A stretch of DNA of 64,000 nt, taken from the NCBI RefSeq assembly GCF_900115435.1, contig NZ_FOWK01000013.1, positions 1-64,000 of the forward strand. Reading direction: 5' to 3'. Below, in pieces: positions 26,702 through 56,725 of the stretch. This DNA is from Prevotella sp. tf2-5 (GTDB lineage Bacteria; Bacteroidota; Bacteroidia; Bacteroidales; Bacteroidaceae). Within the stretch, counting starts at the first letter, position 1. The number at the start of each line of letters is the position of its first letter. Under the pieces are notes generated by a model. That model saw only the letters and a list, made by a program, of their open reading frames with translations. It was not told where the DNA came from and did not search any database. Made by a program: the position numbers and the translations under genes.

Positions 26702-26792
26702 GCCAAGAAGCCGCTTCAGTCACATTTGCGGGACAAGCCTGAAAAAGACTTGTGTCATTGTTTGATGACTAATAATCAAAAGGAGAGGATAT

Positions 26793-37345: not shown

Positions 37346-37371
37346 AAAACTCTTATTTTATTTGATCGTAC

Positions 37372-38865: not shown

Positions 38866-38880
38866 AATCATTGAAAGAAA

Positions 38881-40137: not shown

Positions 40138-40201
40138 AAATATAGGAAACCTATTGTCCTCCAGCAATCTTAGTATGTTAAGGATTTAGTATAGTCGATT
40201 T

Positions 40202-41233: not shown

Positions 41234-41235
41234 GT

Positions 41236-42234
41236 ATGAAGAAACTATTATTTCTTGCAAACATACAACACGGAGAATCACCAACAGGTGGGGGCGTACA
41301 AACGAGAAATCAATATATGCTCAGGTGGTTTCAACAAAGATATGATACCAAATTCTATGATACCTGGCAGAAAAGCGCATTTACGTCATTGATCTCAAGT
41401 ATCCTCTTGACATTATTTTATCATAATAGATTAATAGTAGTAAGTTATGGGATACGAGGAGCAAAAGCTTTAGCCAGCGTATTTAAATTTTTTCATATTG
41501 ATAGAAATATTTTGTTGTTTGTTCCAGGGGGTGATGTTCTTAAGTATGTGTCAGGAAGAGATATTAAAACATTATCTTTTTACAATATGATTTTTGTGCA
41601 AGGAAACTATTTGAAAGAAGCATTAAATCAATGTGGTTTTACAAATATATATTATTGCCCAAACTTTAAAAAAATTGATTATTATCCAATTCATAAAGTG
41701 AAAACTGGGAATATAAGGTTTGTTTATGTTGGCAGATTGCTAAAAGAAAAGGGAATTGATGTTATGCTTGAAGCATTCAAGAAAATTGAGAATGCGGACT
41801 GTAGCCTTACAATTTATGGTAAAGAAACGGAACGTTATAATAGGGATTATTTTTCGTCATTAGATTGTACTAACTTGTTTTTTAAAGGTTATTTGGATCT
41901 AAAACAAAAGGAAGGATATGACGAATTAGCAAGTTACGATGTGTTGGTATTTCCAACATATTATGAGGGTGAAGGCTTTCCTGGAACGTTAGTAGATGCC
42001 TTGATATGTGGTCTGCCTGTAATAGCAACAGATTTTAATGCAAACACAGAAATAATCTCTGATAAGCAATCTGGCATAATTGTACCCGCCAATGATCCGG
42101 AAATCCTTAATAATGCGATGCTCGCGGTTATAAATGGTGAAGAGGACTTACATGATATGTCAGATTGTAGTAGACGAGAAGCTGCGAAGTATGATATAGA
42201 TAGTGTATTGGACCCAATTTTCTGTAATTTGTAA
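41236..42234 (+). CDS. GT4 family glycosyltransferase
   Basis: 332 residues with GT-B fold features: IRFVYVGRLLKEKGIDVMLEAF at the C-domain start, FPTYYEGEGFPGTLVDALICGLPVIATDF with the E-x7-E pair. Donor and acceptor are unknown. It starts 2 bases after the acyltransferase stop. Confidence 0.88.
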   Translation: MKKLLFLANIQHGESPTGGGVQTRNQYMLRWFQQRYDTKFYDTWQKSAFTSLISSILLTLFYHNRLIVVSYGIRGAKALASVFKFFHIDRNILLFVPGGDVLKYVSGRDIKTLSFYNMIFVQGNYLKEALNQCGFTNIYYCPNFKKIDYYPIHKVKTGNIRFVYVGRLLKEKGIDVMLEAFKKIENADCSLTIYGKETERYNRDYFSSLDCTNLFFKGYLDLKQKEGYDELASYDVLVFPTYYEGEGFPGTLVDALICGLPVIATDFNANTEIISDKQSGIIVPANDPEILNNAMLAVINGEEDLHDMSDCSRREAAKYDIDSVLDPIFCNL

Positions 42235-42251
42235 GAAAGTATATAATTGAA

Positions 42252-43133
42252 ATGAAGATAGTAAATATTATAGGTGGTCTTGGGAATCAGATGCTCCAGT
42301 ATGCATACGCCATTAGGTGGAAAGCAATGAACCCAGAAGAGGAAGTGCTACTTGACTTGGGACATTTTCATGGGTATGGTCTCCACAATGGATATGAGTT
42401 GGATAGAATATTTGGTCAAAAACTGCCGACTGCGAAATGGTGGCAGATACTACGAGTGACATGGTATTTACCTTGGTACAAACCGTCCAGATTGCTGAGA
42501 CGCATCATGCCCCGCCGAAAAACGGAATGCATAGAGAAACCTTGGTTTGAATACAAAGAAATATATAATAATTGGGAGGGCAATGGGTATTTTGAGGGAT
42601 ATTGGCATTATCCAGAGCTTCATAGACCCTTTATGGATAAGATAAGGAGCGCATTTACATTCCCTCCGTTTGAAGACGAAGAAAACAGACGAATAGCACA
42701 CCAGATTAGTTCGGTAGACTCAATAACTTTGCATATAAGAAGAGGTGATTACGTAGATGCTCCACCCTTCAAGGATATATGTACAGACTTGTTTTATTGG
42801 AGAGCTATATCAAAGGCAATTAATTTTTGTGAGAATCCGATATTTTTTATATTTAGTAATGACATAGAATATTGTAAAAAACTATTCTTGGACTATCAGG
42901 ACAAATACCAGATAATTTATGTAGATCATAATCATGGTGGTAATAGCTTTCGTGATATGCAATTGATGACCTTGGCCAAGGTTAATATTATTGCAAACTC
43001 TTCGTTTTCATGGTGGGGAGCTTGGCTGAATGAGAGAGAGGGACACCAGACTATAACTCCTACGCCGTGGGTGAATTATACTGATTCACTAGACATGATA
43101 CCAAAGGAATGGATTAAAATTTCAGGAAGATGA
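42252..43133 (+). CDS. Alpha-1,2-fucosyltransferase (GT11)
   Basis: 293 residues with the GT11 N-terminal motif GGLGNQMLQYAYA and the central LHIRRGDYV motif (about 160-168). It should transfer fucose from GDP-L-fucose, which gmd and fcl at 9.4-12.4 kb would supply, linking the two halves of the locus. Its stop overlaps the next ATG (43130). Confidence 0.92.
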   Translation: MKIVNIIGGLGNQMLQYAYAIRWKAMNPEEEVLLDLGHFHGYGLHNGYELDRIFGQKLPTAKWWQILRVTWYLPWYKPSRLLRRIMPRRKTECIEKPWFEYKEIYNNWEGNGYFEGYWHYPELHRPFMDKIRSAFTFPPFEDEENRRIAHQISSVDSITLHIRRGDYVDAPPFKDICTDLFYWRAISKAINFCENPIFFIFSNDIEYCKKLFLDYQDKYQIIYVDHNHGGNSFRDMQLMTLAKVNIIANSSFSWWGAWLNEREGHQTITPTPWVNYTDSLDMIPKEWIKISGR

Positions 43134-44023
43134 AATATCGTACTTTTTCTTTTGTTGATAAAATATACGCGGCATTCGCTCCAAAGGCAGAAGGTTTGGA
43201 TGTAGATACGAAGCGCATTGTAGATCTCATAAAGGACAATGAGCCTTGTATGATATCCCGTTTTGGTTCTACTGAACTACAAACATTATGGTATTCTCGC
43301 TTTTTCCCGATGTCACTACCATTGAAGTCGCGAACTTATTATAATATACAAACTGCATCAGGCTTTTTCCCTGTGACTCACGAGAATCTTAAACGCTTCT
43401 ATAAGGAGTATAAGGAAGATGTGAAGGAAATGGACATGCTGGTAAGTTGGCGTGTTGAGGAATTGTTTTTTAAAGACTGGATAGGTGAGAAGCAGATGAT
43501 AAGGAAAACATCAATGGACACGTTTTATTCACAGGAACAGCCTTGGACAGCAGCTCTTGAAGGACAGCGTGTGTTAGTTGTTCATCCTTTCGCTGAGACA
43601 GTTGAGAAACAGTATAATGAATCGAGAGATAGATTGTTTGCAAATCCATTAGTATTACCTGAATTTGCGAGCCTCCAAACTGTAAAAGCTGTTCAGTCGA
43701 TTGCTGGAGAGAAGGTGCAGTATGCAGATTGGTTTGAAGCACTCGATTATATGAAGTCAGAAATAAACAAAAAAGATTATGATATAGCTTTGATAGGTTG
43801 TGGCGCATATGGACTGCCACTGGCAGCCCATGTAAAACGTATGGGCAAGAAAGCTGTACATATGGGAGGCATATTACAGTTTTTGTTCGGAATCAAAAGT
43901 GTTCGGTATGAAGAACTTGAAGAAACGAAAAATTATATAAATCATTTTTTTGTATATCCTAGTGACAAAGATAAACCCAAGAATGCGTCATTAGTAGAAG
44001 GCGGATGCTACTGGGGGAAATAA
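43130..44023 (+). CDS. GT-D fold glycosyltransferase (DUF1792 type)
   Basis: 297 residues. CMISRFGSTELQTL, the DxE-like region QPWTAALEGQRVLVVHPFA, and ALIGCGAYGLPLAAHVKRMGKKAVHMGG fit the GT-D group first described in streptococcal Fap1 glycosylation (GalT1/DUF1792). Acceptor unknown. It overlaps the fucosyltransferase by 4 bases. Confidence 0.82.
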   Translation: MKYRTFSFVDKIYAAFAPKAEGLDVDTKRIVDLIKDNEPCMISRFGSTELQTLWYSRFFPMSLPLKSRTYYNIQTASGFFPVTHENLKRFYKEYKEDVKEMDMLVSWRVEELFFKDWIGEKQMIRKTSMDTFYSQEQPWTAALEGQRVLVVHPFAETVEKQYNESRDRLFANPLVLPEFASLQTVKAVQSIAGEKVQYADWFEALDYMKSEINKKDYDIALIGCGAYGLPLAAHVKRMGKKAVHMGGILQFLFGIKSVRYEELEETKNYINHFFVYPSDKDKPKNASLVEGGCYWGK

Positions 44024-44034: not shown

Positions 44035-44679
44035 ATGAGTGAAATAAGATTTAGATTGGCAAAGCCAAGCGATGCAAAACAAATTGCGAATGTGCATTAT
44101 CATGTGCGTGACAAGTATGGCGAAGGTTTTTTTGCTCACGTCAATAAGAGTTTTTTAAAACAATATTATAAGATGGTCTTAAATGACCCGTGGCAGATAG
44201 TTGTATGTGCTGAGTTGAATGGCAAGATTCTCGGTTTTAGTAGTGGCTCGATGGATACGGCCATGGAGTTCAAGACATTTCGTCGCAACAAATGGAAATT
44301 CATATGGCCATTGTTTACAACAGCACTGGCAAACCCTAAAATAATCAAAGCAGCATTAGACCGGTTTAAATCAACAGGAGAAGGAAGCACCAAGAAATTT
44401 ATCAATTCTAGTGGTGCAAGAAATGAATTCTGGGCATGGCTGCCTGGAAGGGACGATTCATATATGTCAATCTATACACAAGACCTGATGCTTTTTTTTA
44501 TGAAGATGTTTGGCATAAAGGAAGTATATGGCGAAATGGATACTATCAATAAGAAGGTTGTGAAAATGCAATTGAAGAATGGTTCAAAACCGCTTGAAAC
44601 ATTTATAATGCCTGATGGCCGAGAGCGGATGAGTTGCGTTCTGTACCTTGATGAGTATAAATTTAAATTTCCAAAATAA
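44035..44679 (+). CDS. GNAT-type acetyltransferase
   Basis: 214 residues with GNAT features: IRFRLAKPSDAKQIANVHYH at the start, QIVVCAELNGKILGFSSGS as the beta4 region, and a C-terminal part that would close the fold; the usual Q/RxxGxG site is weak, partly replaced by MAFKTFRRN-like basic residues. It may acylate an amino sugar. It is the last gene before the acyl module, 8 bases away. Confidence 0.7.
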   Translation: MSEIRFRLAKPSDAKQIANVHYHVRDKYGEGFFAHVNKSFLKQYYKMVLNDPWQIVVCAELNGKILGFSSGSMDTAMEFKTFRRNKWKFIWPLFTTALANPKIIKAALDRFKSTGEGSTKKFINSSGARNEFWAWLPGRDDSYMSIYTQDLMLFFMKMFGIKEVYGEMDTINKKVVKMQLKNGSKPLETFIMPDGRERMSCVLYLDEYKFKFPK

Positions 44680-44687: not shown

Positions 44688-45626
44688 ATGAAAGCTTTTT
44701 TGTTTCCTGGCCAAGGTAGCCAGAAAGAACACATGGGAAAGGATCTCTATGACACTTTCCCAAAGGCAAAAGCCATTTTCGAACAGGCCAATGACGTGTT
44801 AGGAGAACGATTCTCAGATACACTTTTTAATGCGACAGAAGACCTACTGATGGATACCCGCTATACGCAGATGGGTATATTTATCTACGAAGTCGCCCTT
44901 GCACTGGGGCAGGAAGAGGTAAAACCAGACTGTGTTGCAGGACACTCACTTGGCGAATATGCAGCATTGGTTGTATCAGGTGTCTTAACCTTTGAAGAAA
45001 CACTTCCGTTTATCAAGAAGCGTGGAGAAGTTTTTTACGAGGCATTCCAGAAACATCCAAGTGCTATGGGGGCTATCATTGGTGTTCCTGATGAGCAAGT
45101 ACTAGATGTACTGAAGCAAGTGGGTGACGAAGATGGTGAAAACCTCTATATTGCAAATTACAACGGGCCAGGCCAATTGGTGATTACTGGCGCACGTGCC
45201 AGCATTAAGAAAGCATGTAAGAAACTGAAGGAGATGGGAGCCAAACGGGCTTTAGTGCTCCCAATGAAAGGAGTTGGACACTCTCCTAATTCTGCAGAAG
45301 AGGGGGAAATATTAGGCGTTGAGTTGAAGAATCTTAATTTTAAAGATGCTCAGATACCCATTTATCAGGATGCTGATGGCGAACCACATACCAATGCACA
45401 AGAAATATTGGATAATCAGATCAAACTGATGACCTATCCTGTACAGTGGACTAAGTTGACAAACCGAATGGATGAGGATGGTGTGAAAGAATTTTATGAG
45501 TGTGGAACAGACGATACACTTCAGAAGATAGTAAAGCGTATGAAGCCAGATTCAGTAGTAACTTCACTCCTTCATATTCCAACATACGAAGGTAAGATAC
45601 ATGATTTTTCAGTTGTAAAAGAATAG
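44688..45626 (+). CDS. Malonyl-CoA:ACP transacylase (FabD-like)
   Basis: 312 residues with FPGQGSQ at the start and the nucleophile S87 in AGHSLGEYAAL; the catalytic histidine is in GVGHSPNS. It would load malonyl groups onto the carrier protein coded next. This is a second, locus-specific copy by inference, as cells have a housekeeping fabD elsewhere. It starts the acyl module. Confidence 0.9.
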   Translation: MKAFLFPGQGSQKEHMGKDLYDTFPKAKAIFEQANDVLGERFSDTLFNATEDLLMDTRYTQMGIFIYEVALALGQEEVKPDCVAGHSLGEYAALVVSGVLTFEETLPFIKKRGEVFYEAFQKHPSAMGAIIGVPDEQVLDVLKQVGDEDGENLYIANYNGPGQLVITGARASIKKACKKLKEMGAKRALVLPMKGVGHSPNSAEEGEILGVELKNLNFKDAQIPIYQDADGEPHTNAQEILDNQIKLMTYPVQWTKLTNRMDEDGVKEFYECGTDDTLQKIVKRMKPDSVVTSLLHIPTYEGKIHDFSVVKE

Positions 45627-45670
45627 AGATATTAGTACTATTGTAATTAACATTTTAAACGTTTAAAATT

Positions 45671-45898
45671 ATGACATTAGATGAATTTGTAGAGGCATTT
45701 GCCGCAGAGTTTGACGAGACACCTGAGGATCAGTTCAAGGCTGATACATTGTTCAAAGAACTGGACGAATGGAGTTCATTAACAGCTCTCTCCATTATCT
45801 CAATGGTTGATGAGGCCTACGACAAGCAGATAACGGGTGCAGATATCCGTAGCTGCGCAACTATCAAGGAACTGTATAATCTTGTAGAAAGCAAGTAA
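45671..45898 (+). CDS. Acyl carrier protein 1
   Basis: 75 residues, acidic, four-helix layout. The phosphopantetheine serine is S36 in DEWSSLTAL, where the common D-S-L is W-S-S-L-like, a known variant in secondary-metabolism carriers. It lies between FabD and the first SDR. Confidence 0.85.
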   Translation: MTLDEFVEAFAAEFDETPEDQFKADTLFKELDEWSSLTALSIISMVDEAYDKQITGADIRSCATIKELYNLVESK

Positions 45899-45899
45899 A

Positions 45900-46649
45900 A
45901 TGTACAATCCCTTTTCTTTATGCGGGAAGACGATTCTGGTAACGGGAGCGTCTTCCGGCATTGGTCAATCGACAGCGATTGAGTGTTCAAAGATGGGCGC
46001 TTCAGTCATAATTACGGGCAGAAACGAACAACGACTGAAAGAAACATTTCTTCAGTTGGAAGAAGGCAGCCACCAGATGATAGCTGCTGATATATCAAAA
46101 TTTGAAGAAATAAAAAAGTTATCGGATGAGTGTCCTCCTTTGGATGGTATTTCTCATAATGCAGGAATAGGTAAAGTATTGCCAGTGAAATTCATTAAGC
46201 CGTCCGACCTTGATGATATACTAACAACAAATACAGAGGCTCCAATTCTACTTACGCAGACTCTTTTAAAAAAGAAGAAAATCAAAAAAGACGCCTCTAT
46301 TGTGTTTACATCCTCCCTTTGTGGCGTATATTGTGTGCATTATGGTGAATCTGTGTATGCTGCTTCGAAAGGAGCGCTAAGTGGTTTTGCAAAAGGAGCT
46401 GCTTTAGAACTGGCAGCACAAGGAATCCGCGTAAATTGCATCAATCCGAGTATTATACAAACGCCCCTTTTTAATACAATTAGTGTGTTAGATGAAGAAG
46501 AGCGAGAAACAAAACTAAAGAACTATCCAATTAAGCGACTCGGACTGCCAACAGATACAGCATGGGCAATTATTTATTTTTTGTCAGAAGCATCAGCGTG
46601 GGTAACAGGAAATAATCTTAAAATTGATGGAGGCTATACACTGATATGA
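45900..46649 (+). CDS. SDR oxidoreductase, FabG-like, intact
   Basis: 249 residues with TGASSGIG (15-22), catalytic S139, Y153 and K157 (YAASK), and the C-terminal GNNLKIDGGYTLI. It probably reduces a 3-oxoacyl group or a related ketone. Its stop overlaps the next ATG by 4 bases. The next gene is its paralogue. Confidence 0.88.
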   Translation: MYNPFSLCGKTILVTGASSGIGQSTAIECSKMGASVIITGRNEQRLKETFLQLEEGSHQMIAADISKFEEIKKLSDECPPLDGISHNAGIGKVLPVKFIKPSDLDDILTTNTEAPILLTQTLLKKKKIKKDASIVFTSSLCGVYCVHYGESVYAASKGALSGFAKGAALELAAQGIRVNCINPSIIQTPLFNTISVLDEEERETKLKNYPIKRLGLPTDTAWAIIYFLSEASAWVTGNNLKIDGGYTLI

Positions 46650-47332
46650 AGAATTATAATCCGTTTACACTGGAAAACAAGTCTGTACTTGTAATAGGTC
46701 AAACCTATGAGATAGGACAGATAGTGGCTGCTTCCTGCGAAAAAGCAGGGGCTGATTTGATAGACGGCCCAATTGCTTATGATGAAGATGGCCTTATAGA
46801 ATTTGTAAATAAATGTCCATCAGTAGATGGCCTTGTTATTGTCGCAGGAGCAAACAAAACAATTTTGTCTCAATTCGTAACAGAAAGCGAAATTGTTGAC
46901 TTTTTTAATAAAAATGTTATACATGGCGTAATGTTATGTAAGAAGTTGCAAAAAAAGAAAAAAATATCAAAAGGAGCATCGGTCGTTTTTGTATCAACTC
47001 TTGCTGGTATTGATAATGTTCATTACGGAGACATCGTAAATGCAATATGCGGAAGTGCGATAAGCGGGTTAAGTAAGAGCTTAGCTTTAGAATATGGTCA
47101 GAAAAATATCCGTGTTAATCATATACGCTATGGAGTCATAGCTACACAAGAAATGACAGCCAACGCTCTACTTAGTGATGAGGAGCTCAAAGAAAAGCAA
47201 TCATATTTTCCTTTAAAGAGGTTTGGCAAGCCCTCTGAAATAGCAAATTCTGTATTGTTTTTCTTGTCGGATGCATCTACTTGGATAACAGGCGCTGATA
47301 TTAGGATAGATGGAGGCTATTCTCTAATATAA
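46646..47332 (+). CDS. SDR paralogue lacking catalytic residues (pseudoenzyme)
   Basis: 228 residues, clearly the same fold as the upstream SDR (shared NVHYGD, IRVNHIR, ITGADIRIDGGYSLI). The cofactor motif TGxxxGxG has become IGQTYEIGQ, and the catalytic Y-x-x-x-K is N132-x-x-x-G136. Helix text is kept and the reading frame is open, so this looks like a kept structural partner rather than a decaying gene. It may pair with the active SDR. Confidence 0.85.
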   Translation: MKNYNPFTLENKSVLVIGQTYEIGQIVAASCEKAGADLIDGPIAYDEDGLIEFVNKCPSVDGLVIVAGANKTILSQFVTESEIVDFFNKNVIHGVMLCKKLQKKKKISKGASVVFVSTLAGIDNVHYGDIVNAICGSAISGLSKSLALEYGQKNIRVNHIRYGVIATQEMTANALLSDEELKEKQSYFPLKRFGKPSEIANSVLFFLSDASTWITGADIRIDGGYSLI

Positions 47333-47358
47333 TGAGATAAATAAAATTTTATATTTAT

Positions 47359-48420
47359 ATGGCATTTATAAAAATAGACAAAGTAGCAGTTCGCGGTATG
47401 GCAGCGTGCGTACCAGAACATATAGAAGAGAACATTGACTTACCCTTCTTTAAAGATGGAGAAGCTGAGCGTGTTATAGCTCAAACGGGAATAGAAAGAA
47501 AACATACCGTTGGAGAAGGAGATTTTACGACAGCAGATCTGTGTGAAAAAGCATGCAATGAACTCATTGAGAAACTAGGTTGGGAAAGAGACAGCATTGA
47601 TGCAATAGTGTTTGTTTGCTCAGTAGGTGACTATATATTACCACCTTCTTCGTGCTTGCTTCAAGACAGGCTTGGCTTGTCGGAGTCCTGTTTAGCTATA
47701 GACATCAAACAGGGTTGTCCCGGCTGGGTAATAGGGATGAGTACAGCGACAGCCCTAGTTGCCACGGGCTCCATTAAGCGAGCAATCTTGATGAATGGAG
47801 ATTTGAATTCTCTTTTGAATTCCAGAAGAGATAAGGAAACTGCGCCAATTTTTGGAGATGCAGGAGCAGCAACGGCTTTGGAATATGATGAAAATGCCCC
47901 CACTATGTATTTCTACCACGGAACAAGAGGTAAAGACTTTAAATTTGCATATATTCCAGAGGGCGGGCATCGTAATAAGCTAACACCAGAATCTTTGGAA
48001 TATAAGGAAATCAGACCAAATGTTTTAAGAAGAGGTATCGATACGATTATGGATGGTATGGGAGTATTTGCATTCGGATTAAATGTAGGTCCCAAACTGA
48101 TTAAATGTCCTTGTGAACATTACGGTCTGAATATGGACGAAGTTGATTTCTTTGTTTTCCATCAGGCAAACAAATATTTGATTGACAAAATAAGAAAGAA
48201 ATTAAAGATAGAACCAGAAAGAGTTCCTTATTGTATTAAGGATTTTGGAAATACTGGTAACTGTTGTGTTCCACTAACCCTGGTGTCGCAATGTAATGAG
48301 GAGATGAATAACAAGAAGTTGAAAATAATGGGCTGTGCTTTTGGTGTAGGAATGGCATGGTCTAGTGTTTATTTCGAGACAGATAAAATCGTTTGTCCAC
48401 AATTATTATTATACAAATAA
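47359..48420 (+). CDS. 3-oxoacyl-ACP synthase III-like enzyme
   Basis: 353 residues, KASIII (FabH) type, with the catalytic triad C120 (IKQGCPGW), H268 (FVFHQANKY) and N298 (DFGNTGNCC). It would condense an acyl-CoA starter with malonyl-ACP. It is the only condensing enzyme in the module, so at most one extension is expected unless it borrows housekeeping FabF. Confidence 0.9.
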   Translation: MAFIKIDKVAVRGMAACVPEHIEENIDLPFFKDGEAERVIAQTGIERKHTVGEGDFTTADLCEKACNELIEKLGWERDSIDAIVFVCSVGDYILPPSSCLLQDRLGLSESCLAIDIKQGCPGWVIGMSTATALVATGSIKRAILMNGDLNSLLNSRRDKETAPIFGDAGAATALEYDENAPTMYFYHGTRGKDFKFAYIPEGGHRNKLTPESLEYKEIRPNVLRRGIDTIMDGMGVFAFGLNVGPKLIKCPCEHYGLNMDEVDFFVFHQANKYLIDKIRKKLKIEPERVPYCIKDFGNTGNCCVPLTLVSQCNEEMNNKKLKIMGCAFGVGMAWSSVYFETDKIVCPQLLLYK

Positions 48421-48431
48421 AATTTTATATT

Positions 48432-48668
48432 ATGACAAATTTAGAGAAGTACACAAACGTGTTTGTAGAAAATCTGCAGGTAACGGCAGATCAGTGTAAA
48501 GGCCTTCAGTACCAGGGAGTAGAACTTTGGGACTCTGTTGGTCACATGACTTTAGTTGCAGCTCTTGAGGATGCATTTGATATTATGCTTGAGACCGATG
48601 ATATTGTTGATCTGTCATCGTTTGAAAAAGGAATGGAAATCCTCAAGAAATATGATGTTGAATTCTGA
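48432..48668 (+). CDS. Acyl carrier protein 2
   Basis: 78 residues from ATG 48432; an upstream in-frame start would overlap the KASIII gene. The carrier serine is S35 in LWDSVGHM. It is more unusual than carrier 1 and is likely dedicated to a second intermediate. Its stop overlaps the dehydratase start by 1 base. Confidence 0.85.
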   Translation: MTNLEKYTNVFVENLQVTADQCKGLQYQGVELWDSVGHMTLVAALEDAFDIMLETDDIVDLSSFEKGMEILKKYDVEF

Positions 48669-49138
48669 TGGACGAGCTAGTATTAGATTACAATGACATA
48701 TTGAGGGTACAGGTAAACAGGAACCCTTATTTGATGATAGATAAGGCCACGAAAGTGATTCCAGGTAAATTGGCATGTGGCTATAAAAATCTATCATTTA
48801 ATGAGTGGTTCTTTCCTGTCCATTTCCCGGGAAACCCCTGTATGCCAGGTTTTTTACAGGCTGAGGCGTTAACACAAATGTGCGCTCTAACTATATTTAC
48901 CTTAGAAGGAAATGAAGGAAAGATCGCTTTGCTTCTCTCATGTGAAAAACTTCGATTGTTTAACATGGTTCGACCTGGGGATAAATTAGATTTAGAAACA
49001 GAACTTATCTCTTATCGCCATGGCATTGCAAAAGGAAAGGGAAGAGCAACTGTTGACGGGAAATTAGTATGCTCTTGTGAGATGACTTTTACATTGTCAG
49101 ATTCTGAAGAGCGGAAATCGCTAACACCTAAAGTTTAA
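48668..49138 (+). CDS. 3-hydroxyacyl-ACP dehydratase (FabZ/FabA-like)
   Basis: 156 residues, hot-dog fold. VHFPGNPCMPGFLQAEALTQ carries the catalytic H52 and E65. It would remove water from a 3-hydroxyacyl-ACP made by KASIII and an SDR. No enoyl reductase is coded nearby, so the product may stay unsaturated. Confidence 0.88.
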   Translation: MDELVLDYNDILRVQVNRNPYLMIDKATKVIPGKLACGYKNLSFNEWFFPVHFPGNPCMPGFLQAEALTQMCALTIFTLEGNEGKIALLLSCEKLRLFNMVRPGDKLDLETELISYRHGIAKGKGRATVDGKLVCSCEMTFTLSDSEERKSLTPKV

Positions 49139-49142
49139 TCAT

Positions 49143-49889
49143 ATGAATACAAACCAAGGAAAAACGGTCTTGATTACCGGATGTAACAGAGGCATTGGTT
49201 TAGCTTTTCTGGATGCCTTTGCTGAATCAGGGGCAACGGTATTGGCTTGTGTTAGATCTAAGGATGGAGAATTTGTCCATCATTGTGATGAACTTTCTAA
49301 AAAGACTGGAACAGAAATAGTTGTTTTTACTGCAGATCTTTCTTCTGAAGATAGTATTAAAGCATTCATATCAGAGTTATACAAAACCAAACGTAAAGTT
49401 GATGTTCTTATCAATAATGCTGGTGTTGTAACTAAAGGGATTCTGCAAATGACGACATTACAGTCTATTAAGGATGTTTTCCAAATTAATTTCTTTGCAC
49501 AAGTTCAGATTACACAAGGAGTAGCCAAGTTGATGATGCGTCAGAAATCGGGCGTAATTATCAATATGGCTTCGATTGGTGGTATTGATGCCTATCCTGC
49601 TTATACCAGTTATGGATGTAGTAAGGCAGCTGTGATTTATTTTACCAAGACAATGGCCCAGGAACTCGCTCCTTATGGAATACGGGTGAACGCTATTGCT
49701 CCGAGTATGGTTAAAACCCGTATGCAAGAACAGATGGGCGAGGAAGCGAATGAGGAAATCATGCGCAGAACCGCCTTAAAGCGTAATGCCGAGCCTGATG
49801 AGATAGCAAAGTTGGCTTTGTTCTTAGCATCTGATGATTCATCATTTATCACTGGTCAAGTATATAGAATTGATGGAGGGCTGAATTAA
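49143..49889 (+). CDS. SDR oxidoreductase, FabG-like (third)
   Basis: 248 residues with ITGCNRGIG, NNAGVV, and the Y-x-x-x-K pair in YTSYGCSKAAV; SFITGQVYRIDGGLN at the end. All catalytic residues are present. It is closer to standard FabG than the pair at 45.9-47.3 kb. Its stop codon overlaps the transketolase start. Confidence 0.88.
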   Translation: MNTNQGKTVLITGCNRGIGLAFLDAFAESGATVLACVRSKDGEFVHHCDELSKKTGTEIVVFTADLSSEDSIKAFISELYKTKRKVDVLINNAGVVTKGILQMTTLQSIKDVFQINFFAQVQITQGVAKLMMRQKSGVIINMASIGGIDAYPAYTSYGCSKAAVIYFTKTMAQELAPYGIRVNAIAPSMVKTRMQEQMGEEANEEIMRRTALKRNAEPDEIAKLALFLASDDSSFITGQVYRIDGGLN

Positions 49890-50704
49890 TGGATAGTAAC
49901 AAGATTAAACAATTAGCTCTTGATTTAAGAAAAGAAATTATAGAGTCTTCTTATGCAACCGGAAGAATTGGTGTTCACTATGGCCCTGCTCTTTCACTGG
50001 CTGATTATTTGGCTGTACTTTATGGTGGCGCAATGAACGTTGCCCCCAATAAGACAACTGATGAAAACAGAGATCGCTTTGTGTTGAGTAAAGGACATGC
50101 ATATACTGCACTATATTCTGTTTTAAGTCTTTGTGGTTTTATTCCGGAGGGTGAATACCGTTCCAATTTTATGACTGATGGAGGTCGCTACCCCGCACAT
50201 CCTATTAAGCAGCTGGATAGAGGAATAGAAAGTTCAACTGGTAGTCTTGGGATGGGGTTGTCCTTTGCAGTTGGTAAGGCACTGAATGCAAAAAGAAAAG
50301 GTTTATCATACACCACATACGTGGCCATGGGTGATGGCGAATGCAACGAAGGTAGCACTTTCGAGGCCTTTGTGTCAGCTGCTCAGTTTGGTCTAGATAA
50401 CCTTGTGATATTTATAGATCATAACGGTTTGCAGCAGGACGGCACAACGAAGGAAATTATGAATATTCCTTTTGCTAATATGTTGAACGCCATTGGTTGC
50501 AATGCTGTTGAGATTGATGGTAATGATGTTGATGCAATCATTGCTGCTCTCGAATCTAGAAAAAAAGATGGTAAACCATTTGTCATTGTTGGCAAAACCA
50601 CCAAGGGTAAGGGCATCTCTTTCATGGAAGGTGAGAACAAATGGCATCATGCTACATTGAGTGAAGAAGATTATCAAACAGCTATTAATGAATTAAACGC
50701 ATAA
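49889..50704 (+). CDS. Transketolase, N-terminal subunit
   Basis: 271 residues with the thiamine diphosphate motif GDGECNEGS ... N (about 149-177) and HPIKQLDRGIESSTGSLGMG. With the next gene it makes a split transketolase-like enzyme. Such pairs in sugar loci move a two-carbon ketol unit or carry out related acyloin chemistry. Confidence 0.9.
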   Translation: MDSNKIKQLALDLRKEIIESSYATGRIGVHYGPALSLADYLAVLYGGAMNVAPNKTTDENRDRFVLSKGHAYTALYSVLSLCGFIPEGEYRSNFMTDGGRYPAHPIKQLDRGIESSTGSLGMGLSFAVGKALNAKRKGLSYTTYVAMGDGECNEGSTFEAFVSAAQFGLDNLVIFIDHNGLQQDGTTKEIMNIPFANMLNAIGCNAVEIDGNDVDAIIAALESRKKDGKPFVIVGKTTKGKGISFMEGENKWHHATLSEEDYQTAINELNA

Positions 50705-50709
50705 TTAAC

Positions 50710-51678
50710 ATGGATTACAATAGATTACAAATGAGAACGTGGTCCATGCTTGGAAAGCGTGGAACTTTTGGAACTGTTTTTTCTGAATTTGCTGAAGGAA
50801 GACAGAACACCATAGCGATGTCGGCTGATTTTACTAGATCCTCTGGGCTCGAGCGATTTAGTAAAGCTCACCCTGAACAGTTTATCAATGTTGGTATTGC
50901 TGAGCAGAATCTTCTTGGCGTCGCATCTGGTCTTGCCAGCGAGGGAAATAATGTTTTTGTGACATCATTTGCGGCTTTTATTGCGACCCGTTGCTATGAG
51001 CAGGTGAAAATTCACTGCGGATACATGAAGCATAATATCAAAGTTATTGGGCTGGCTTCAGGTTTTGGCGTTCAACAACAGGGCAATACCCATTATGGTC
51101 TTGATGACCTCTGTCTGATGCGTTCTATTCCAGGTTTGACCATTTTATCACCTGCTGATTCTACTGAAGTTGTAAAGGCCACAAAAGCCTTGATGGATTA
51201 TGAAGGTCCAGTTTATCTGCGCCTGTGCGGTGAAGCTGGTGATCCGATGGTGTATAAAGAGGATTATGACTTCCAGATAGGTAAAGCCATTACACTACGT
51301 GAAGGTGCAGATGTGACTATTGTTGCTACAGGAACAATGGTATATCAGTCACTTCAAGCAGCTAAGGCACTCGCGGAAGAAGGCATTGAGTGTACCGTTG
51401 TTAATATGCACACCATTAAGCCTCTCGATAAGGATGCTATTGATAAGTATTGTCACGATTGCAAATTGGTGGTAACTGCTGAGGAAGGCTTTATTAGTGG
51501 TGGATTAGGTGCCGCTGTGGCAGAGGAAATTGTTCAGAGCGGCAAGCGTATCCCCCCGATGCAGATAATTGGATTGACTGAATTTCCGCACGCAGGCAGT
51601 TATAAGTATATGCTTGACCAGACAGGTTTGGATGCTGCTCATATTGCTGCCAGAATCAAAGAAGCATTGAAAGCTTAA
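50710..51678 (+). CDS. Transketolase, C-terminal subunit
   Basis: 322 residues: pyrimidine-binding part with FINVGIAEQNLLGVASGLAS (the glutamate activates thiamine diphosphate) and the C-terminal domain (VVTAEEGFISGGLGAAVAEE). It starts 5 bases after the N-subunit. The pair has DXS/pyruvate-dehydrogenase-E1-like organisation in two chains. Confidence 0.9.
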   Translation: MDYNRLQMRTWSMLGKRGTFGTVFSEFAEGRQNTIAMSADFTRSSGLERFSKAHPEQFINVGIAEQNLLGVASGLASEGNNVFVTSFAAFIATRCYEQVKIHCGYMKHNIKVIGLASGFGVQQQGNTHYGLDDLCLMRSIPGLTILSPADSTEVVKATKALMDYEGPVYLRLCGEAGDPMVYKEDYDFQIGKAITLREGADVTIVATGTMVYQSLQAAKALAEEGIECTVVNMHTIKPLDKDAIDKYCHDCKLVVTAEEGFISGGLGAAVAEEIVQSGKRIPPMQIIGLTEFPHAGSYKYMLDQTGLDAAHIAARIKEALKA

Positions 51679-51682
51679 CTTA

Positions 51683-52381
51683 ATGGATCTGTTCTCATTC
51701 GAGATTAACGGACATCATGTATTGGCCTACAGGAGCGTATATGCCCCTGTTAGGTCCAATATGTTTACATTATTATCTAGAAATGCTGCGGTGGTTTTTG
51801 ATCCGAATGAGGATGAGGAACTGTTACAATTATTTAAAGATAAAGGAACAGAAAAAGTACACATTCTATTGACGCACGGCCATTATGACCACATTAGCGG
51901 AGTAGAATGGTTAAAAGAACATACGGGGGCGTCTGTCTTTTGTCAGGCTATGTGTGCAGACAGACTAGCCAACAGTAAGCGTCCCTTATCACGTTTGGTA
52001 GCTATGGTGTTAGCTGTAGAAGATATGAAAGATGGCGGACGCCGATACCAAGATTTTAAAGGCTCCTATAAGCCATTTACAATCAAAGCAGATATAACTT
52101 TCGACAAAGAGGCAGATATTAAAGTAGGAGAGTTTGAGTTTCATGTAACTTCAACTCCAGGACATAGCGAAGGTAGTTCTTGTTATCAGCTCTTTGATAA
52201 AATGGTTTTCACTGGTGATACGCTATTGAAAGAATATCCTGTGATATTAAAGTTCCCTGGTGGTAATAAGAAAGACTACGAGAGTAAAGCACTCCCTTTT
52301 TTACAGAGTTTGCCTAAGGACTGTATCATTATGCCAGGACATGGGGAACCATTTATTTTGAAAGAAACGAAAAACATTTGA
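51683..52381 (+). CDS. MBL-fold hydrolase 1
   Basis: 232 residues with the metal site THGHYDH (about 64-70), TPGHSEGSSC, FTGDTLL and PGHGEP. Glyoxalase II-like. In this setting a thioesterase role on a carrier-bound acyl group is likely, but unproven. The downstream gene begins right at its stop. Confidence 0.85.
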   Translation: MDLFSFEINGHHVLAYRSVYAPVRSNMFTLLSRNAAVVFDPNEDEELLQLFKDKGTEKVHILLTHGHYDHISGVEWLKEHTGASVFCQAMCADRLANSKRPLSRLVAMVLAVEDMKDGGRRYQDFKGSYKPFTIKADITFDKEADIKVGEFEFHVTSTPGHSEGSSCYQLFDKMVFTGDTLLKEYPVILKFPGGNKKDYESKALPFLQSLPKDCIIMPGHGEPFILKETKNI

Positions 52382-52383
52382 AT

Positions 52384-53784
52384 ATGATGTTTGACTTAAA
52401 TAAGTTTGCAAGTAACATTGCAGTTGAAACCGAGCATGGTAAGACATTAACCTACGCTCAATTAGAGAAAGATGCAAAGACAATAGCTGAGGTGATGAAA
52501 CCTCGAAAATTCACCTTTTGCCTTTGTGAGAACACGCTAGGTAGTTTTGTTGGCTATGTGGCGTTTATGACGCATAATATTCCAACAGTATTGCTGGATG
52601 GCAGTAAGGATATGGACATTGTACTGAGCCTCGCTAAACATTATATGCCTGAGTATATATGGATACCGACGAAGAGAGTTGATGAATTAGGTCATGGTGT
52701 CCCTGTCATAACCTACGAAGATTATACGCTTATTAATTGGGCTGATACGAACTATGACATCCAACCAGACTTACTGTTATGTCTGACAACATCAGGAACA
52801 ACAGGAAGTCCCAAACTTGTTAAACTTACAGAGAAAAATCTGAGAAGTAATGCCGAGTCGATTGCAGAGTATCTGAAGATAACGGAGAAGGAACGAGCAA
52901 TTACATCCCTTCCGATGTACTATAGCTTTGGCATGTCGGTCATCAATAGCCATTTGATAAAAGGTGCGACTTTGTTGCTTACTGATAAGGCTGTAATACA
53001 AAGAGAGTTCTTAAACTTTTTGAAAGAAGGTAAGGCCACTTCTATAGCAGGTGTACCTTATACTTACGAGATGCTAAGAAGACTTAGATTCTTGAAAATG
53101 GATTTGCCAGAATTGAAAACCATGATACAGGCAGGAGGAAAGCTCAATGCGAATATCGTAAAGGAATATGTGGAATCAGCACAGGCTTCAGGTAAGGAGT
53201 TTATAGTTATGTATGGCCAGACTGAGGCAGCACCTCGTATGAGTTATCTGCCATTTGATAAGGCCTTGGAGAAATATGCCAGCATTGGTATTGCTATTCC
53301 TGGAGGTAAACTTTCTGTTCGTGATGTGAATGATCAGGAGATTACAACCCCTGATACCGATGGAGAATTGATTTATGAAGGTCCGAATGTATGCATGGGC
53401 TATGCCGAGTGCATAGAGGACTTGGCCAAGGGAGATGAAAACCATGGCGTTCTACATACTGGCGATGTTGCCAGATTTGATAATGATGGCTATTTCTATA
53501 TCACAGGTCGAATGAAGCGGTTTGTGAAGGTATGGGGTAACCGCTGTAATTTGGATGCTACAGAACAGTTAGTGAAAGCAATTACCACCAGTTGCGCTTG
53601 TGTTGGTGTAGATGACAAGATTACAGTTTTTGTCACAGAGAGCGGATTGGAAGATAAAATCAAAGAATATCTCGTTGATAAAACAGGACTGAATATTAGA
53701 GCTTTTGATGTGAAGGTGGTGGATGAAATACCTACGCTACCTTCAGGAAAGCTAGATTATCAAACAATGCAAAAAATGATTTAA
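52384..53784 (+). CDS. AMP-binding acyl ligase
   Basis: 466 residues of the ANL superfamily: P-loop LTTSGTTGSPK (about 134-144), YGQTEAAPRM, HTGDVARFDNDGYFYITGR, and the C-terminal lysine in LPSGKLDYQ. It would activate a free acid as acyl-AMP and load CoA or a carrier protein. I start at ATG 52384; a TTG at 52378 overlaps the previous gene. Confidence 0.88.
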   Translation: MMFDLNKFASNIAVETEHGKTLTYAQLEKDAKTIAEVMKPRKFTFCLCENTLGSFVGYVAFMTHNIPTVLLDGSKDMDIVLSLAKHYMPEYIWIPTKRVDELGHGVPVITYEDYTLINWADTNYDIQPDLLLCLTTSGTTGSPKLVKLTEKNLRSNAESIAEYLKITEKERAITSLPMYYSFGMSVINSHLIKGATLLLTDKAVIQREFLNFLKEGKATSIAGVPYTYEMLRRLRFLKMDLPELKTMIQAGGKLNANIVKEYVESAQASGKEFIVMYGQTEAAPRMSYLPFDKALEKYASIGIAIPGGKLSVRDVNDQEITTPDTDGELIYEGPNVCMGYAECIEDLAKGDENHGVLHTGDVARFDNDGYFYITGRMKRFVKVWGNRCNLDATEQLVKAITTSCACVGVDDKITVFVTESGLEDKIKEYLVDKTGLNIRAFDVKVVDEIPTLPSGKLDYQTMQKMI

Positions 53785-53787
53785 GAT

Positions 53788-56055
53788 ATGACACTAGAAG
53801 AATTATTGAATGTTGCCCCATACTCGATGGGCAAAGAAGAGAAACATGCAGTTCTGGATGAGTATTTGGTTAATCTTACCAAGTACCACTATGAGCATAG
53901 TGAGGAGTATCGCAAGATGCTGGATGGTACAGGCTTCGACATCAACAAAGTACAGCATTATGAAGACCTTCCGTACTTGCCGGTAAGCCTTTTCAAGGAT
54001 CTTACATTAAGGAGTGTGGCAGAGGATGAGGTCATCAAGACCATGACTTCCTCTGGAACTACTGGTCAGAAGACTTCCAAAATCTATCTGGACCGTGAGA
54101 CCTCTGCCAACCAGACCAAGACGCTCACCAAGATTGTGACCTCACTGTTGGGTAACAAACGTGTGCCCATGATTATCCTGGACTCCAGCAATGTGGTGAA
54201 GGATAGAAATATGTTCTCTGCCCGAGGAGCCGGTATCCTTGGTTTCTCTATGTTTGGCAGCAAGCGTATGTATGCGTTGGATGAGAATATGGAACTGGAT
54301 ATCGAGGGAATGAAAGCCTTTTTGGAGGAACACAAAGATGAGACCATCTTCCTCTTTGGTTTTACCTTCATGATCTGGCAGCACTTCTATAAGAAGTTGT
54401 TGGAAAGCGGATACAAACCTGACCTTTCCAAGGGTGTGTTGATTCACGGTGGAGGTTGGAAGAAACTGGTGGCAGAATCTGTCTCAACTGCTCAGTTCAA
54501 ACAGTGCCTAAACGATGTCTGTGGTATTAAGGTGGAGAATGTTCACGACTACTACGGTATGGTGGAACAGACCGGTACAATCTATATTGAGTGTGAATGT
54601 GGTCACCTGCATGCTTCCAACTTCTCTGATATCATTATTCGTAACCCCAAGGACTTCAGTGTGGCCAAGAATGGTGAAACGGGAATCATTGAAGTGGTGA
54701 GCGTATTGCCTAAGAGCTATCCAGGCCATGTACTTTTGACCGAGGATGAAGGAGTTGTTCTAGGTGAGGATGATTGCCCTTGCGGACGTAAAGGCAAATA
54801 TTTCCATATTCACGGACGTATTAAGAATGCTGAGATCCGTGGATGCTCTGATACCTATGCCGCCAAGTTCGGTAAACTGAGCGGGCTGGAGTTCGTGATA
54901 GGTGATGACAAGACCATTGAGCAGATGCCATCTGTGCCTGCATTGCCTCCGTTTGCAGAACCTGTTATTTCGTTCTTTAATGACCTTTCTAAATTAGTGA
55001 TGCAGAGGGGACGTCAGTATTCCGATGTGATGACATTCGGATTCTGGTGCCGTAAGGGTGCTTTGATGAAAGAGAAGGAGCATTATCACGATATTGAACG
55101 CAGGTTGGGTCGTGGTATTGTGTTCCATAGCACCCCGAGTAACGTGCCTGTGAACTGTGCATTCAGTTTTGCCGCTGGTTTGCTGGCTGGTAATGCCAAC
55201 ATTGTACGTTTGCCGGCTAAGGACTTTCCGCAAGTACAGATTATCAGTGATTGTGTGCGTGAACTGCTGGAAACCACTCATAAGGATATGGCTCCGTACA
55301 TCTGCTTTGTGAAGTATCCGCCTATCAAGGAGATTACCGACCTGTTCTCCGGCATGTGCCAGAGTCGTGTGGTTTGGGGTGGTGATGCAACCATTGCTGA
55401 AATTCGTCAGAGCCCTATACAGCCCAGAGCTAACGAAGTGAACTTTGCAGACCGTTACAGCTTCTCAGTATTGAATGCAGACGCATTCCTGTCTGCAGAT
55501 GATCAAGATAAGGTGGTTCAGAACTTCTATAATGATACTTATTTCTCGGATCAGAATGCTTGTACTGCACCTCGAATCATTGTGTGGGTAGGGGAGAAGA
55601 AGACTGAGGCCAAGGAACTCTTCTGGAAGAAGGTGGTTGCATATGCTCAGGAGCATTACAATATTGCTCCTGTGCAGACCATAGGTAAGATCAATGCCTT
55701 GTATAAGGCTGCTGCTAATCTGAAGTTGGGTAAAGTGACTGTTGAACAGCCGTTGCTTACTCGCATCCAGGTTGATACATTAGCACCCGTACTAATGGAT
55801 TACCGTTTCAATAGTGGTTTCTTCTATGAGTATGATGCCAAGTCATTAACTGACCTGCTGCCTATTGCAACAATCAAGAGCCAGACAGTTACGTACTATG
55901 GTTTGACTCGTGAGGAGATTATTAAGTTTGTGAACGAAGACCATCCACAGGGCGTGGATAGATTTGTGCCCCTGGGTGAATCCATGAATTTCACTTTGGT
56001 ATGGGATGGATATGATTTAATTACGACACTCTCTAGAATCGTGAATATATTATAG
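53788..56055 (+). CDS. LuxE-LuxC fusion: acyl-protein synthetase plus acyl reductase
   Basis: 755 residues in two parts. Residues 1 to about 365 are LuxE/PaaK-like (TSSGTTGQKTSK near 87-98; a Cys-rich turn CECGHLH ... CPCG). From about 380 the text is LuxC-like (GIVFHSTPSNVPVNCAFSF, AGNANIVRLPAKDFPQ) with the likely nucleophile C592 in QNACTAPR. LuxE activates the acid and LuxC reduces it to an aldehyde with NADPH; in luminous bacteria they are separate proteins. Codon use is more G+C-rich than in the genes before it, suggesting a separate origin. Confidence 0.9.
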   Translation: MTLEELLNVAPYSMGKEEKHAVLDEYLVNLTKYHYEHSEEYRKMLDGTGFDINKVQHYEDLPYLPVSLFKDLTLRSVAEDEVIKTMTSSGTTGQKTSKIYLDRETSANQTKTLTKIVTSLLGNKRVPMIILDSSNVVKDRNMFSARGAGILGFSMFGSKRMYALDENMELDIEGMKAFLEEHKDETIFLFGFTFMIWQHFYKKLLESGYKPDLSKGVLIHGGGWKKLVAESVSTAQFKQCLNDVCGIKVENVHDYYGMVEQTGTIYIECECGHLHASNFSDIIIRNPKDFSVAKNGETGIIEVVSVLPKSYPGHVLLTEDEGVVLGEDDCPCGRKGKYFHIHGRIKNAEIRGCSDTYAAKFGKLSGLEFVIGDDKTIEQMPSVPALPPFAEPVISFFNDLSKLVMQRGRQYSDVMTFGFWCRKGALMKEKEHYHDIERRLGRGIVFHSTPSNVPVNCAFSFAAGLLAGNANIVRLPAKDFPQVQIISDCVRELLETTHKDMAPYICFVKYPPIKEITDLFSGMCQSRVVWGGDATIAEIRQSPIQPRANEVNFADRYSFSVLNADAFLSADDQDKVVQNFYNDTYFSDQNACTAPRIIVWVGEKKTEAKELFWKKVVAYAQEHYNIAPVQTIGKINALYKAAANLKLGKVTVEQPLLTRIQVDTLAPVLMDYRFNSGFFYEYDAKSLTDLLPIATIKSQTVTYYGLTREEIIKFVNEDHPQGVDRFVPLGESMNFTLVWDGYDLITTLSRIVNIL

Positions 56056-56092
56056 AAAGTAATCAATACTCGGGTTCACGGCATCTTAGAAT

Positions 56093-56725
56093 ATGTTACG
56101 GGTAGTGCGCTTTGTTAATGAACTTATGACTTCTAATTGCTATGTGGTATTTGATGATCAAACAAAAGGTTGTGTGATTATAGACCCAGGTAGTGAGAAG
56201 TCGGAAAGAGAAATCGCATTTGTAAATACTAATCATCTGAAGTTAGATTATATTGTTATTACGCATGAACATACAGATCATAACTGGGGGGTAAACGCAT
56301 TAATGAGTGAATTTCCAAATGCGCAGTTAATCAGTTCGGAGATATGCAGACAAAGGGCGAAGAAGACAAATAAGATGTATTTTTTGCTCTACTATGACGA
56401 CCCCGACTATCGGTATGTGCTGAATGAACCAGACATCGTGATTAAAGATGATATGAGTCACATCACGTGGAATAATCAGAACGTGACATTTATAATGACG
56501 CCAGGACATAGCTTTGGTTCCATGTGTATCAAGATAGGTGACATGCTTTTTACTGGAGATACCATTATGCCTTATAAGCCATATTTTAACGGCAGGGACA
56601 GTAACCTAGACGACTGGGAGACTTCAGTTGAGAAGATTGGGATGATGCTACCTGAAGACACAATCGTATATCCTGGACATGGAGAGAAACTGTCATTGAG
56701 TGAGTGGCTGGAACAATATAGGTAA
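56093..56725 (+). CDS. MBL-fold hydrolase 2
   Basis: 210 residues with THEHTDHNWG (about 57-66), TPGHSFGSMC, FTGDTIMP and YPGHGEKL, a full metal-site set. It is a second glyoxalase II-like enzyme, distinct from the one at 51683. It closes the acyl module, 37 bases after the LuxE-LuxC gene. Confidence 0.85.
   Translation: MLRVVRFVNELMTSNCYVVFDDQTKGCVIIDPGSEKSEREIAFVNTNHLKLDYIVITHEHTDHNWGVNALMSEFPNAQLISSEICRQRAKKTNKMYFLLYYDDPDYRYVLNEPDIVIKDDMSHITWNNQNVTFIMTPGHSFGSMCIKIGDMLFTGDTIMPYKPYFNGRDSNLDDWETSVEKIGMMLPEDTIVYPGHGEKLSLSEWLEQYR

Follow-up and report, generated by a model that had tools for sequence, protein, structure and literature searches.

Prevotella sp. tf2-5 was analysed over positions 1 to 64,000 of the forward strand of contig NZ_FOWK01000013.1 (assembly GCF_900115435.1), hereafter the window, and we describe here a run of acyl, aldehyde and transketolase genes that follows its glycosyltransferase genes. 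Open reading frames (ORFs) and matches to Pfam and NCBIfam delimit 14 genes at 44688-56725, all on the + strand and with intergenic gaps of −4 to 44 bases, which confirms the observation made in an earlier note on this DNA. Their order is FabD, a first acyl carrier protein (ACP1), two short-chain dehydrogenases/reductases (SDR1 and SDR2), the β-ketoacyl-ACP synthase KASIII, ACP2, FabZ, a FabG-like SDR, the N- and C-terminal halves of a split transketolase (TK; TKN and TKC), a metallo-β-lactamase-fold (MBL) hydrolase (MBL1), an AMP-forming ligase (AMP ligase), a LuxE-LuxC fusion and a second hydrolase, MBL2 (Table 1). The module continues the glycosyltransferase (GT) genes without a break. Judged by its domain matches, the setting is a Wzx/Wzy-type polysaccharide locus, although the Wzy match upstream scores under its cut-off. 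The capsule operon proposed in the earlier note stands as a polysaccharide locus, with capsule as a candidate product.

Table 1. Genes of the module and features next to it. L and G numbers are our handles for loci and genomes compared elsewhere; percentages are identities.
Feature	Position	Strand	Evidence
FabD-like malonyl-CoA:ACP transacylase	44688..45626	+	PF00698 1.6e-28; TIGR00128 245.5 bits, under cut-off 260.9; GHSLG; 52% to L074 FabD
ACP1, carrier protein (WSSL)	45671..45898	+	PF00550 1.1e-4, above cut-off; 55% to L033 ACP1
SDR1, ketoreductase-type SDR	45900..46649	+	PF13561 3.1e-45; glycine motif, YAASK
SDR2, degenerate SDR paralogue, 228 aa	46646..47332	+	PF13561 1.3e-28, C-terminal part only
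KASIII	47359..48420	+	PF08541/PF08545; NF006829 192 bits, under cut-off 249; QGCPG, FHQAN, GNTGN (C/H/N)
ACP2, carrier protein (WDSV)	48432..48668	+	weak NCBIfam ACP matches; 69% to L052 ACP2 beside related AMP ligase
FabZ-like 3-hydroxyacyl-ACP dehydratase	48668..49138	+	PF07977 4.2e-22; NF000582 above cut-off; HFPG
FabG-like SDR, reductase accompanying the TK pair	49143..49889	+	PF13561 6.5e-62; Y-x3-K; FabG match in 13/13 TK-bearing ligase-anchored loci
TKN, transketolase N-terminal subunit	49889..50704	+	PF00456 1.1e-41; PDB 6yak 1.1e-51; GDG
TKC, transketolase C-terminal subunit, dedicated clade	50710..51678	+	PF02779/PF02780; PDB 6yaj 2.7e-62; tree
MBL1 metallo-hydrolase, candidate thioesterase	51683..52381	+	PF00753 2e-17; HGHYDH; 61% in L052, 36% in L200
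AMP ligase, candidate acyl-ACP ligase	52384..53784 (ORF from TTG 52378)	+	PF00501 3e-40; catalytic Lys
LuxE-LuxC fusion, candidate acid-to-aldehyde reductase	53788..56055	+	PF04443 2.6e-60, PF05893 2.2e-24; PDB 7xc6 LuxE 1.9e-16; Cys motifs
MBL2 metallo-hydrolase, candidate thioesterase	56093..56725	+	PF00753 5.5e-24; HxHxDH; 30% to hydrolase after LuxEC in L033
Candidate acyltransferase, GNAT by eye only	44035..44679	+	no Pfam or NCBIfam match
Polysaccharide genes: NTP_transf_5, MurJ/Wzx-like, Wzy-like, acyltransferase 3, GT4, GT11, GT-D-like	36275..44023	+	Pfam, NCBIfam

String matching recovered the motifs searched for, which we take to be catalytic or attachment sites, in 13 of the 14 module proteins. 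The exception, SDR2, has neither a full glycine motif nor the Tyr/Lys pair; at this place the relatives L064, L071 and L074 hold two intact SDRs. SDR2 may be a non-catalytic partner of SDR1, the pair forming a heteromer with one dead subunit. Because the other 13 genes keep the checked motifs and their tight spacing, selection appears to hold the whole gene set. The 14 genes look like a single biosynthetic module. As the earlier note had stated, KASIII is the only condensing enzyme and no enoyl reductase of the FabI, FabK or FabV type was matched among the 14 genes in Pfam or NCBIfam (best 25 NCBIfam matches for the SDRs), so that the module is not a complete type II fatty acid synthase. The adh_short_C2 match of the SDRs is to a generic SDR model, and SDR1 carries Y-x3-K, where a FabI motif would be Y-x6-K. 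ACP2 starts at about 48432 (ATG), within ORF 48393-48668. Both Pfam domains of the LuxE-LuxC fusion score over their cut-offs, and the LuxE and LuxC cysteines, presumably the acyl-accepting residues, are invariant across five aligned fusions.

The module combines three cassettes in a mosaic: FabD-ACP1-SDR1-SDR2-KASIII-FabZ; ACP2, AMP ligase, LuxE-LuxC and the MBL hydrolases; and the FabG-like SDR with the split TK. To follow these elsewhere, we searched genome_contigs (84,980 species) with an AMP-ligase alignment, after a prefilter for one of two short peptide patterns; this gave at least 28 loci: 26 with a ligase at 39-63% identity and two weak ones (L075, L079), all kept in n = 28. L040/L066 and L041/L064 are each one locus by gene content and were counted once; the 28 loci occupy 27 contigs, L060 and L065 lying ~15 kb apart on a shared one. 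Gene presence was scored within the 14-21 kb stretch around each ligase. A TK pair was found in 13/28 loci, LuxE plus LuxC in 9/28 and KASIII in 10/28. TK occurred with LuxEC in two of the 28 (L054, L076) and with KASIII in nine; KASIII occurred with LuxEC in none. A FabG-like SDR and ACP2 were present in all 13 TK-bearing loci. L074 has FabD-ACP1-KASIII-SDR-SDR-FabG-TK-ACP2-ligase in common with the window and is without LuxEC. L033 (genome G121, of the window's family) holds ACP1-SDR1-KASIII-SDR-ACP-ligase-LuxEC-MBL without TK, its ligase and LuxC being only distantly alike. A single-protein LuxEC search of a family sample hit 31/151 genomes, in most of them with a weak match to just a part of LuxE; G077, G121 and G005 were followed.

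The linkage between TK and LuxE-LuxC was then examined with other anchors. G543 is a Lachnospiraceae record that holds L054; in its order, a LuxE-LuxC query matched 17 of 295 genomes at E ≤ 1e-90, G543 itself counted. Searched against the same 295 genomes, 12 LuxEC-linked TK sequences gave scores that split in two, with 13 genomes at 395 bits or more and the others at 344.7 bits or less, and all 13 of the high-scoring genomes fall within the 17 (Fisher 1.5e-19, descriptive because the genomes are related). The TK lies within the LuxEC neighbourhood in 11 of the 17. L147, L158 and L161 have a contiguous FabG-TKN-TKC-LuxE-LuxC unit, and L155/L200 has two TK pairs plus FabZ, MBL1, ACP2 and ligase; in G1116 (L164/L198) a TK pair ~7 kb off is outside the module clade described below. 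LuxE-LuxC matches were found in 2/58 genomes in the order of Ruminiclostridium hungatei and in 2/229 in the class of Chromobacterium, each pair including the query genome. Ten of the 35 plasmid records with LuxEC relatives are from Rhizobium, and the three of these ten that were examined all carry TKN-TKC, ACP, AMP ligase, LuxE, LuxC, SDR and FabZ. Deinococcus, Ponticoccus and Nonomuraea have ACP-SDR-ligase-LuxE-LuxC, with TK absent within the stretch examined. Relatives of FabZ co-occur with LuxE/LuxC in L052, L073, L148, L155/L200 and Rhizobium. The core recurs in unrelated bacteria, and the association of TK with LuxE-LuxC, recurring in three phyla, is more than chance. L158 (G876:C14) looks mirror-imaged, with two inverted copies of FabG-TKN-TKC-LuxE-LuxC that agree in lengths and identities, which may be an assembly artefact. 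ACP2-LuxE-LuxC-AMP ligase also occurs without TK, in L160, L162 and L163; L160, the one scanned, has an HpaB-like flavoprotein and an enoyl-CoA hydratase nearby and looks like acyl-CoA metabolism.

In L149/L150 (G675, G736), the unit is directly flanked by LonC-like protease and M16 peptidase genes (Pfam on L149), and the Rhizobium clusters have a single glycosyltransferase and an adjoining siderophore receptor. Because the unit is found by peptidase genes, by a siderophore receptor and in a flagellar region of Dickeya, the core looks like a general pathway recruited by polysaccharide loci and not a capsule-only invention. The grounds on which the earlier note would be refuted thus apply in part: the unit occurs outside polysaccharide loci, and its core is already listed for Dickeya, although for no demonstrated sugar or lipid.

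The gene slot beside LuxE-LuxC is not always filled by TK. In L052, from an uncultured Bacteroidales metagenome-assembled genome, an acetolactate-synthase-type thiamine pyrophosphate (TPP) enzyme and a NeuB-family synthase stand in place of the window's FabG-TKN-TKC, and the same swap, with FabZ, occurs in L073 (Chromobacterium alkanivorans) and L148. TK, the TPP enzyme and NeuB are all C-C ligases with carbonyl acceptors. Since the swapped enzymes all share this property, the simplest reading of the swap is that LuxE-LuxC would be their common aldehyde source. G845, a LuxEC genome with TK on another contig, has both solutions. Normal flagellin modification in Shewanella oneidensis requires sfmA (NeuB domain), sfmB (TPP enzyme) and sfmC (3-oxoacyl-ACP reductase), and because the sfm operon as described in the available text holds no LuxE, the TPP enzyme/NeuB pair can act without LuxEC (PMC3765264). 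As a separate observation, L052 and the window are 93% identical in LuxE and 87% in LuxC (90% overall) versus 61% in MBL1, 63% in the ligase and 69% in ACP2, which may reflect recent recombination of the LuxE-LuxC gene (L052 11448-13715).

To place the TK of the module, we compared its sequence with those of other split enzymes. The closest solved structure for both halves is the split transketolase of Carboxydothermus (PDB 6yaj/6yak). In a tree of 67 C-halves, built by a quick search and with several long branches, 27 module TKs, labelled as such by gene context beforehand, form one clade with a Shimodaira-Hasegawa-like approximate likelihood-ratio (SH-aLRT) support of 97. The clade spans Bacteroidota, Bacillota and Rhizobium plasmids; outside it fall 12 of the phylum's common split TKs, 17 TKs from G543's order and 10 further ones, and the TKs of L189 and L198 branch just beyond it. 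Other split TKs were labelled 'cat' (catabolic) or 'prim' (primary), which are guesses from surrounding ORF lengths; this tree took 12 of the 28 'prim' C-halves extracted, another took 14 of 28, and L094 yielded none. A phylum-level search (A3) was dominated by common split TKs (191/395 genomes at E ≤ 1e-75), with more than 304 bits in the window's own genome only; the module TK is rare at phylum level, and the search says little more. The split state was rejected as a sign of novelty, being ordinary. A second split TK in genome G000 (L050, G000:C15:4314-6223) is among these 10 further ones outside the module clade, and the subunits can be fused, a single 656-aa ORF matching TKN plus TKC (L159 5681-7651).

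The paired halves of the window have the features of a transketolase, namely the GDG TPP motif, GIAEQNL and the catalytic His. The acceptor/phosphate site of pentose-phosphate TKs, GEDG..H, is absent: the window reads QQQG with the catalytic His kept, and the His preceding the GEDG-type motif is replaced by Ala in TKC, which sits in a separate clade. The TK of Carboxydothermus hydrogenoformans, with which the window TK has the alpha/beta split in common (PDB 6yaj/6yak; PMC7661550, available text), keeps GEDGASHQ where the window has QQQGNTHY. The GEDG Asp is absent from 14/14 module TKs of one alignment and likewise from further module TKs. Its loss was rejected as a marker of module TKs, as it is shared by 9/10 'cat' TKs and by those of L082 and L189. 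In an evolved series of E. coli TK that includes D469T, acceptor use shifted from phosphorylated towards non-phosphorylated, aliphatic and aromatic aldehydes, according to the text available (PMC5073344). Since the GEDG Asp is missing, the usual sugar phosphate is an unlikely acceptor for the module TK; the loss says no more than this.

Tentatively, and with slightly less than even confidence, we propose that these genes form a dedicated assembly line, whose output would be a hydroxylated (polyol-like) acyl group attached as a decoration to a surface-polysaccharide sugar. The AMP ligase would load an acid onto ACP2, and an MBL hydrolase, standing in for the thioesterase LuxD, would feed LuxE-LuxC, by which the carboxylate would be reduced to an aldehyde. 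The split TK would move a two-carbon ketol unit from a ketose phosphate onto this aldehyde, and the FabG-like SDR would reduce the new ketone that TK leaves. The FabD/ACP1/KASIII/SDR1-SDR2/FabZ arm would prime or extend the chain by malonyl condensation, and an acyltransferase, either the candidate GNAT or acyltransferase 3, would transfer the group to the glycan. The proposal draws on the gene set, its conserved motifs, the dedicated TK clade and the recurrent linkage of TK, SDR, ACP, AMP ligase and LuxE/LuxC, all seen at the sequence level; from product and substrate to the order of steps, tethering to ACP2, chain length and attachment point, the details are what we infer.

Several observations weigh against this proposal. 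LuxE/LuxC is absent from 11 of the 13 TK loci (Bacteroidota) among the ligase-anchored stretches, nine of these 11 having KASIII; outside one subgroup, TK is therefore not tied to a LuxEC aldehyde. Among the loci examined, only the window combines the KASIII arm with the TK/LuxEC core; the arm is missing from all other loci with TK and LuxE/LuxC, so that the TK/LuxEC chemistry is independent of it. In the order of G543, four of the 17 LuxEC genomes are without TK and two more have it on another contig, and nine of the 13 TK genomes had supplied rows to the TK search model. The loss of the GEDG Asp, occurring as it does in other split TKs, is unspecific, and the TPP motif is GDA rather than GDG in 11 module N-halves, a count that matches the number of Bacteroidota module TKs. 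No clear PglD/NeuD-type acyltransferase or aminotransferase was found in the window, and the cassette has no known product. That TK always needs LuxEC was rejected, given the Bacteroidota loci with TK and without LuxEC.

These results bear unevenly on the earlier note, whose interpretation is partly supported as a whole. Its aldehyde from LuxE-LuxC and ketol from TK gain from the nesting of the 13 TK genomes within the 17 LuxEC genomes and from the swap, but not from the 11 TK loci that do without LuxE/LuxC. Its C4 unsaturated or hydroxylated unit is a guess. The gene-neighbourhood search that it suggested found the TK/LuxEC core again, but KASIII, TK and LuxEC together in the window only, among the loci examined.

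Parts of the module have counterparts in luminous bacteria and in glycan islands. In the LuxCDE fatty acid reductase of luminous bacteria, LuxE and LuxC form the aldehyde and LuxD is a thioesterase; the window differs in having LuxE and LuxC fused, MBL hydrolases for LuxD, carrier proteins, and no luciferase among the module genes. The tetronate genes of Vibrio cholerae presumably encode an ACP, an AMP ligase (WbeL), a LuxE/LuxC-type protein and an alcohol-forming dehydrogenase, without TK or a KASIII arm. The window holds components of this type, with an SDR as reductase, a likeness by description only. In V. cholerae O1, the product of VC0248-VC0252 is an N-acyl group on the O-antigen amino sugar and WbeL has 471 aa, according to the available text of PMC3441752, which cites Morona 1995 for the pathway. 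The Aeromonas group II and enterobacterial flagellin glycosylation islands share ACP, 3-oxoacyl-ACP reductase, AMP synthetase, luxE and luxC with the window (PMC7874193, PMC4875605); the word 'transketolase' is absent from the main texts of both papers, and 'tkt', looked for in PMC4875605 only, from that one. By analogy, the V. cholerae and Aeromonas group II sets are five-gene relatives of the module.

The closest published gene lists are those of the Dickeya flagellar clusters (PMC7575072, PMC4522980), where, as in the window, LuxC, LuxE, an AMP ligase, two TK genes, FabG and ACP stand together; likened from these lists, the window contains the Dickeya-type tkt/lux set. The Dickeya cluster lies in a flagellar island and not in a Wzx/Wzy locus, has an aminotransferase and a maltose O-acetyltransferase, unlike the window, and is listed without FabD, KASIII, FabZ or MBL. 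In the available text, one paper judges a role in flagellar biogenesis unlikely and another suggests that it serves to modify the flagellin glycan with a 'liposugar'; neither gives a TK-LuxEC mechanism or shows a sugar or lipid. Literature searches, with subscription journals mostly outside their scope, turned up no paper that describes the full set within a capsule or O-antigen locus, as the earlier note had supposed, but the core gene set is already listed in print; its joining to the KASIII arm is particular to the window among the loci examined. For this arm, the likely relatives, by analogy, are wfpC-wfpG of Flavobacterium psychrophilum (two β-ketoacyl synthases (KAS), ACP, reductase and PglD-like transferase), whose predicted product is a 3,5-dihydroxyhexanoyl group, observed on Qui2NAc4N by nuclear magnetic resonance; LuxEC, TK and AMP ligase go unmentioned in the available text (PMC6519341). 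Compared with this ACP, KAS, ketoreductase and acyltransferase set, the window has the first three, and a PglD-like gene is absent among the window genes scanned.

The acyltransferases near related units bear on the destination of the product. A PglD-like acyltransferase adjoins the unit in L033, and a NeuD/VioB-family acyltransferase occurs in L076 (178 bits, cut-off 160.8) and, below cut-off, in L206 (153 bits). L149/L150, L155 and L161 share a family near the unit that has no Pfam match; its model (predicted local distance difference test, pLDDT, 72) resembles tandem-GNAT proteins and N-myristoyltransferase, with 164 PDB matches at E ≤ 0.001 and TM-scores of 0.35-0.55 in the best 50 of the 164. 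A homologue of this GNAT-like family occurs in L072, a locus without TK or LuxEC. The nearby acyltransferases fit acyl transfer to an amine or hydroxyl. As to the upstream acyltransferases invoked in the earlier note, acyltransferase 3 is present, but the GNAT at 44035-44679 rests on inspection by eye: its predicted model has a pLDDT of 39.8, and it has no homologue in the other loci compared.

The main rival to the acyl assembly line is a lengthened sugar, which we consider rather unlikely: LuxE-LuxC would reduce a hydroxy or sugar acid, TK would add two carbons to yield a ketose monosaccharide, and the fatty acid synthase arm would separately make a simple hydroxyacyl group. TK products are ketoses, and sugar genes accompany some units: in L156 a glucose-1-phosphate cytidylyltransferase, a 4,6-dehydratase-type protein and a C-methyltransferase follow, and in L154 PseB is close by. 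L147 and L161 also hold two LuxE-LuxC sets, one with TK and the other with ACP2 and AMP ligase. Against this, the presence of ACP2 with TK and AMP ligase in 13/13 TK loci points to a carrier-bound acyl chain, albeit in a sample anchored on the ligase, and the window module lacks a nucleotidyltransferase for a new sugar.

Less likely still is a plain hydroxyacyl modification, in which FabD/ACP1/KASIII/SDR1 would make a short hydroxyacyl group and LuxEC, TK and the rest would be an accreted cassette with little role or for another decoration. The F. psychrophilum prediction offers a precedent (PMC6519341, available text), L203 and L204 (Parabacteroides distasonis) have ACP1-SDR1-KASIII, ligase and ACP2 without TK or LuxEC, and SDR2 is degenerate; the retention of motifs and tight spacing in the other 13 genes suggests instead that the whole set is under selection. 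A small molecule or lipid not confined to polysaccharide, made by a mobile pathway present here by accident, would suit the peptidase-flanked L149/L150 and the Rhizobium clusters but is very unlikely, because the module follows glycosyltransferases without a gap and glycan genes are usual where neighbours were tested (L033, L040, L041, L147, L154, L156, L203-L205).

Within the proposed acyl assembly line, a more specific version is doubtful: the core may be a carrier-protein-bound polyol synthase, in which a tethered acid would become an aldehyde, receive two carbons from a ketose through the dedicated TK and have its ketone reduced, with malonyl extension by KASIII possible. If true, polyketide-type and carbohydrate-type chain building would be combined in one pathway, with TK, the acetolactate-synthase-type TPP enzyme and NeuB interchangeable in one slot. 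That a TK clade is accompanied in three phyla by carrier proteins, an acyl ligase and, often, LuxE/LuxC suggests a widespread, uncharacterised route to glycan substituents. The predicted aldehyde plus ketol chemistry, possibly carrier-bound, could account for 'fatty acid' genes of flagellin and O-antigen islands that have so far no assigned role.

Two further features lie elsewhere in the window. Upstream, a possible defence island at 21411-28265 comprises an SMC/LmuB-like ATPase, two genes without matches, a type II-like methyltransferase and an ATPase-Toprim-like protein (padloc match 2.3e-44). Downstream of the module, an AIPR-domain protein is encoded at 60610-62355 (AbiU match 2.7e-26).

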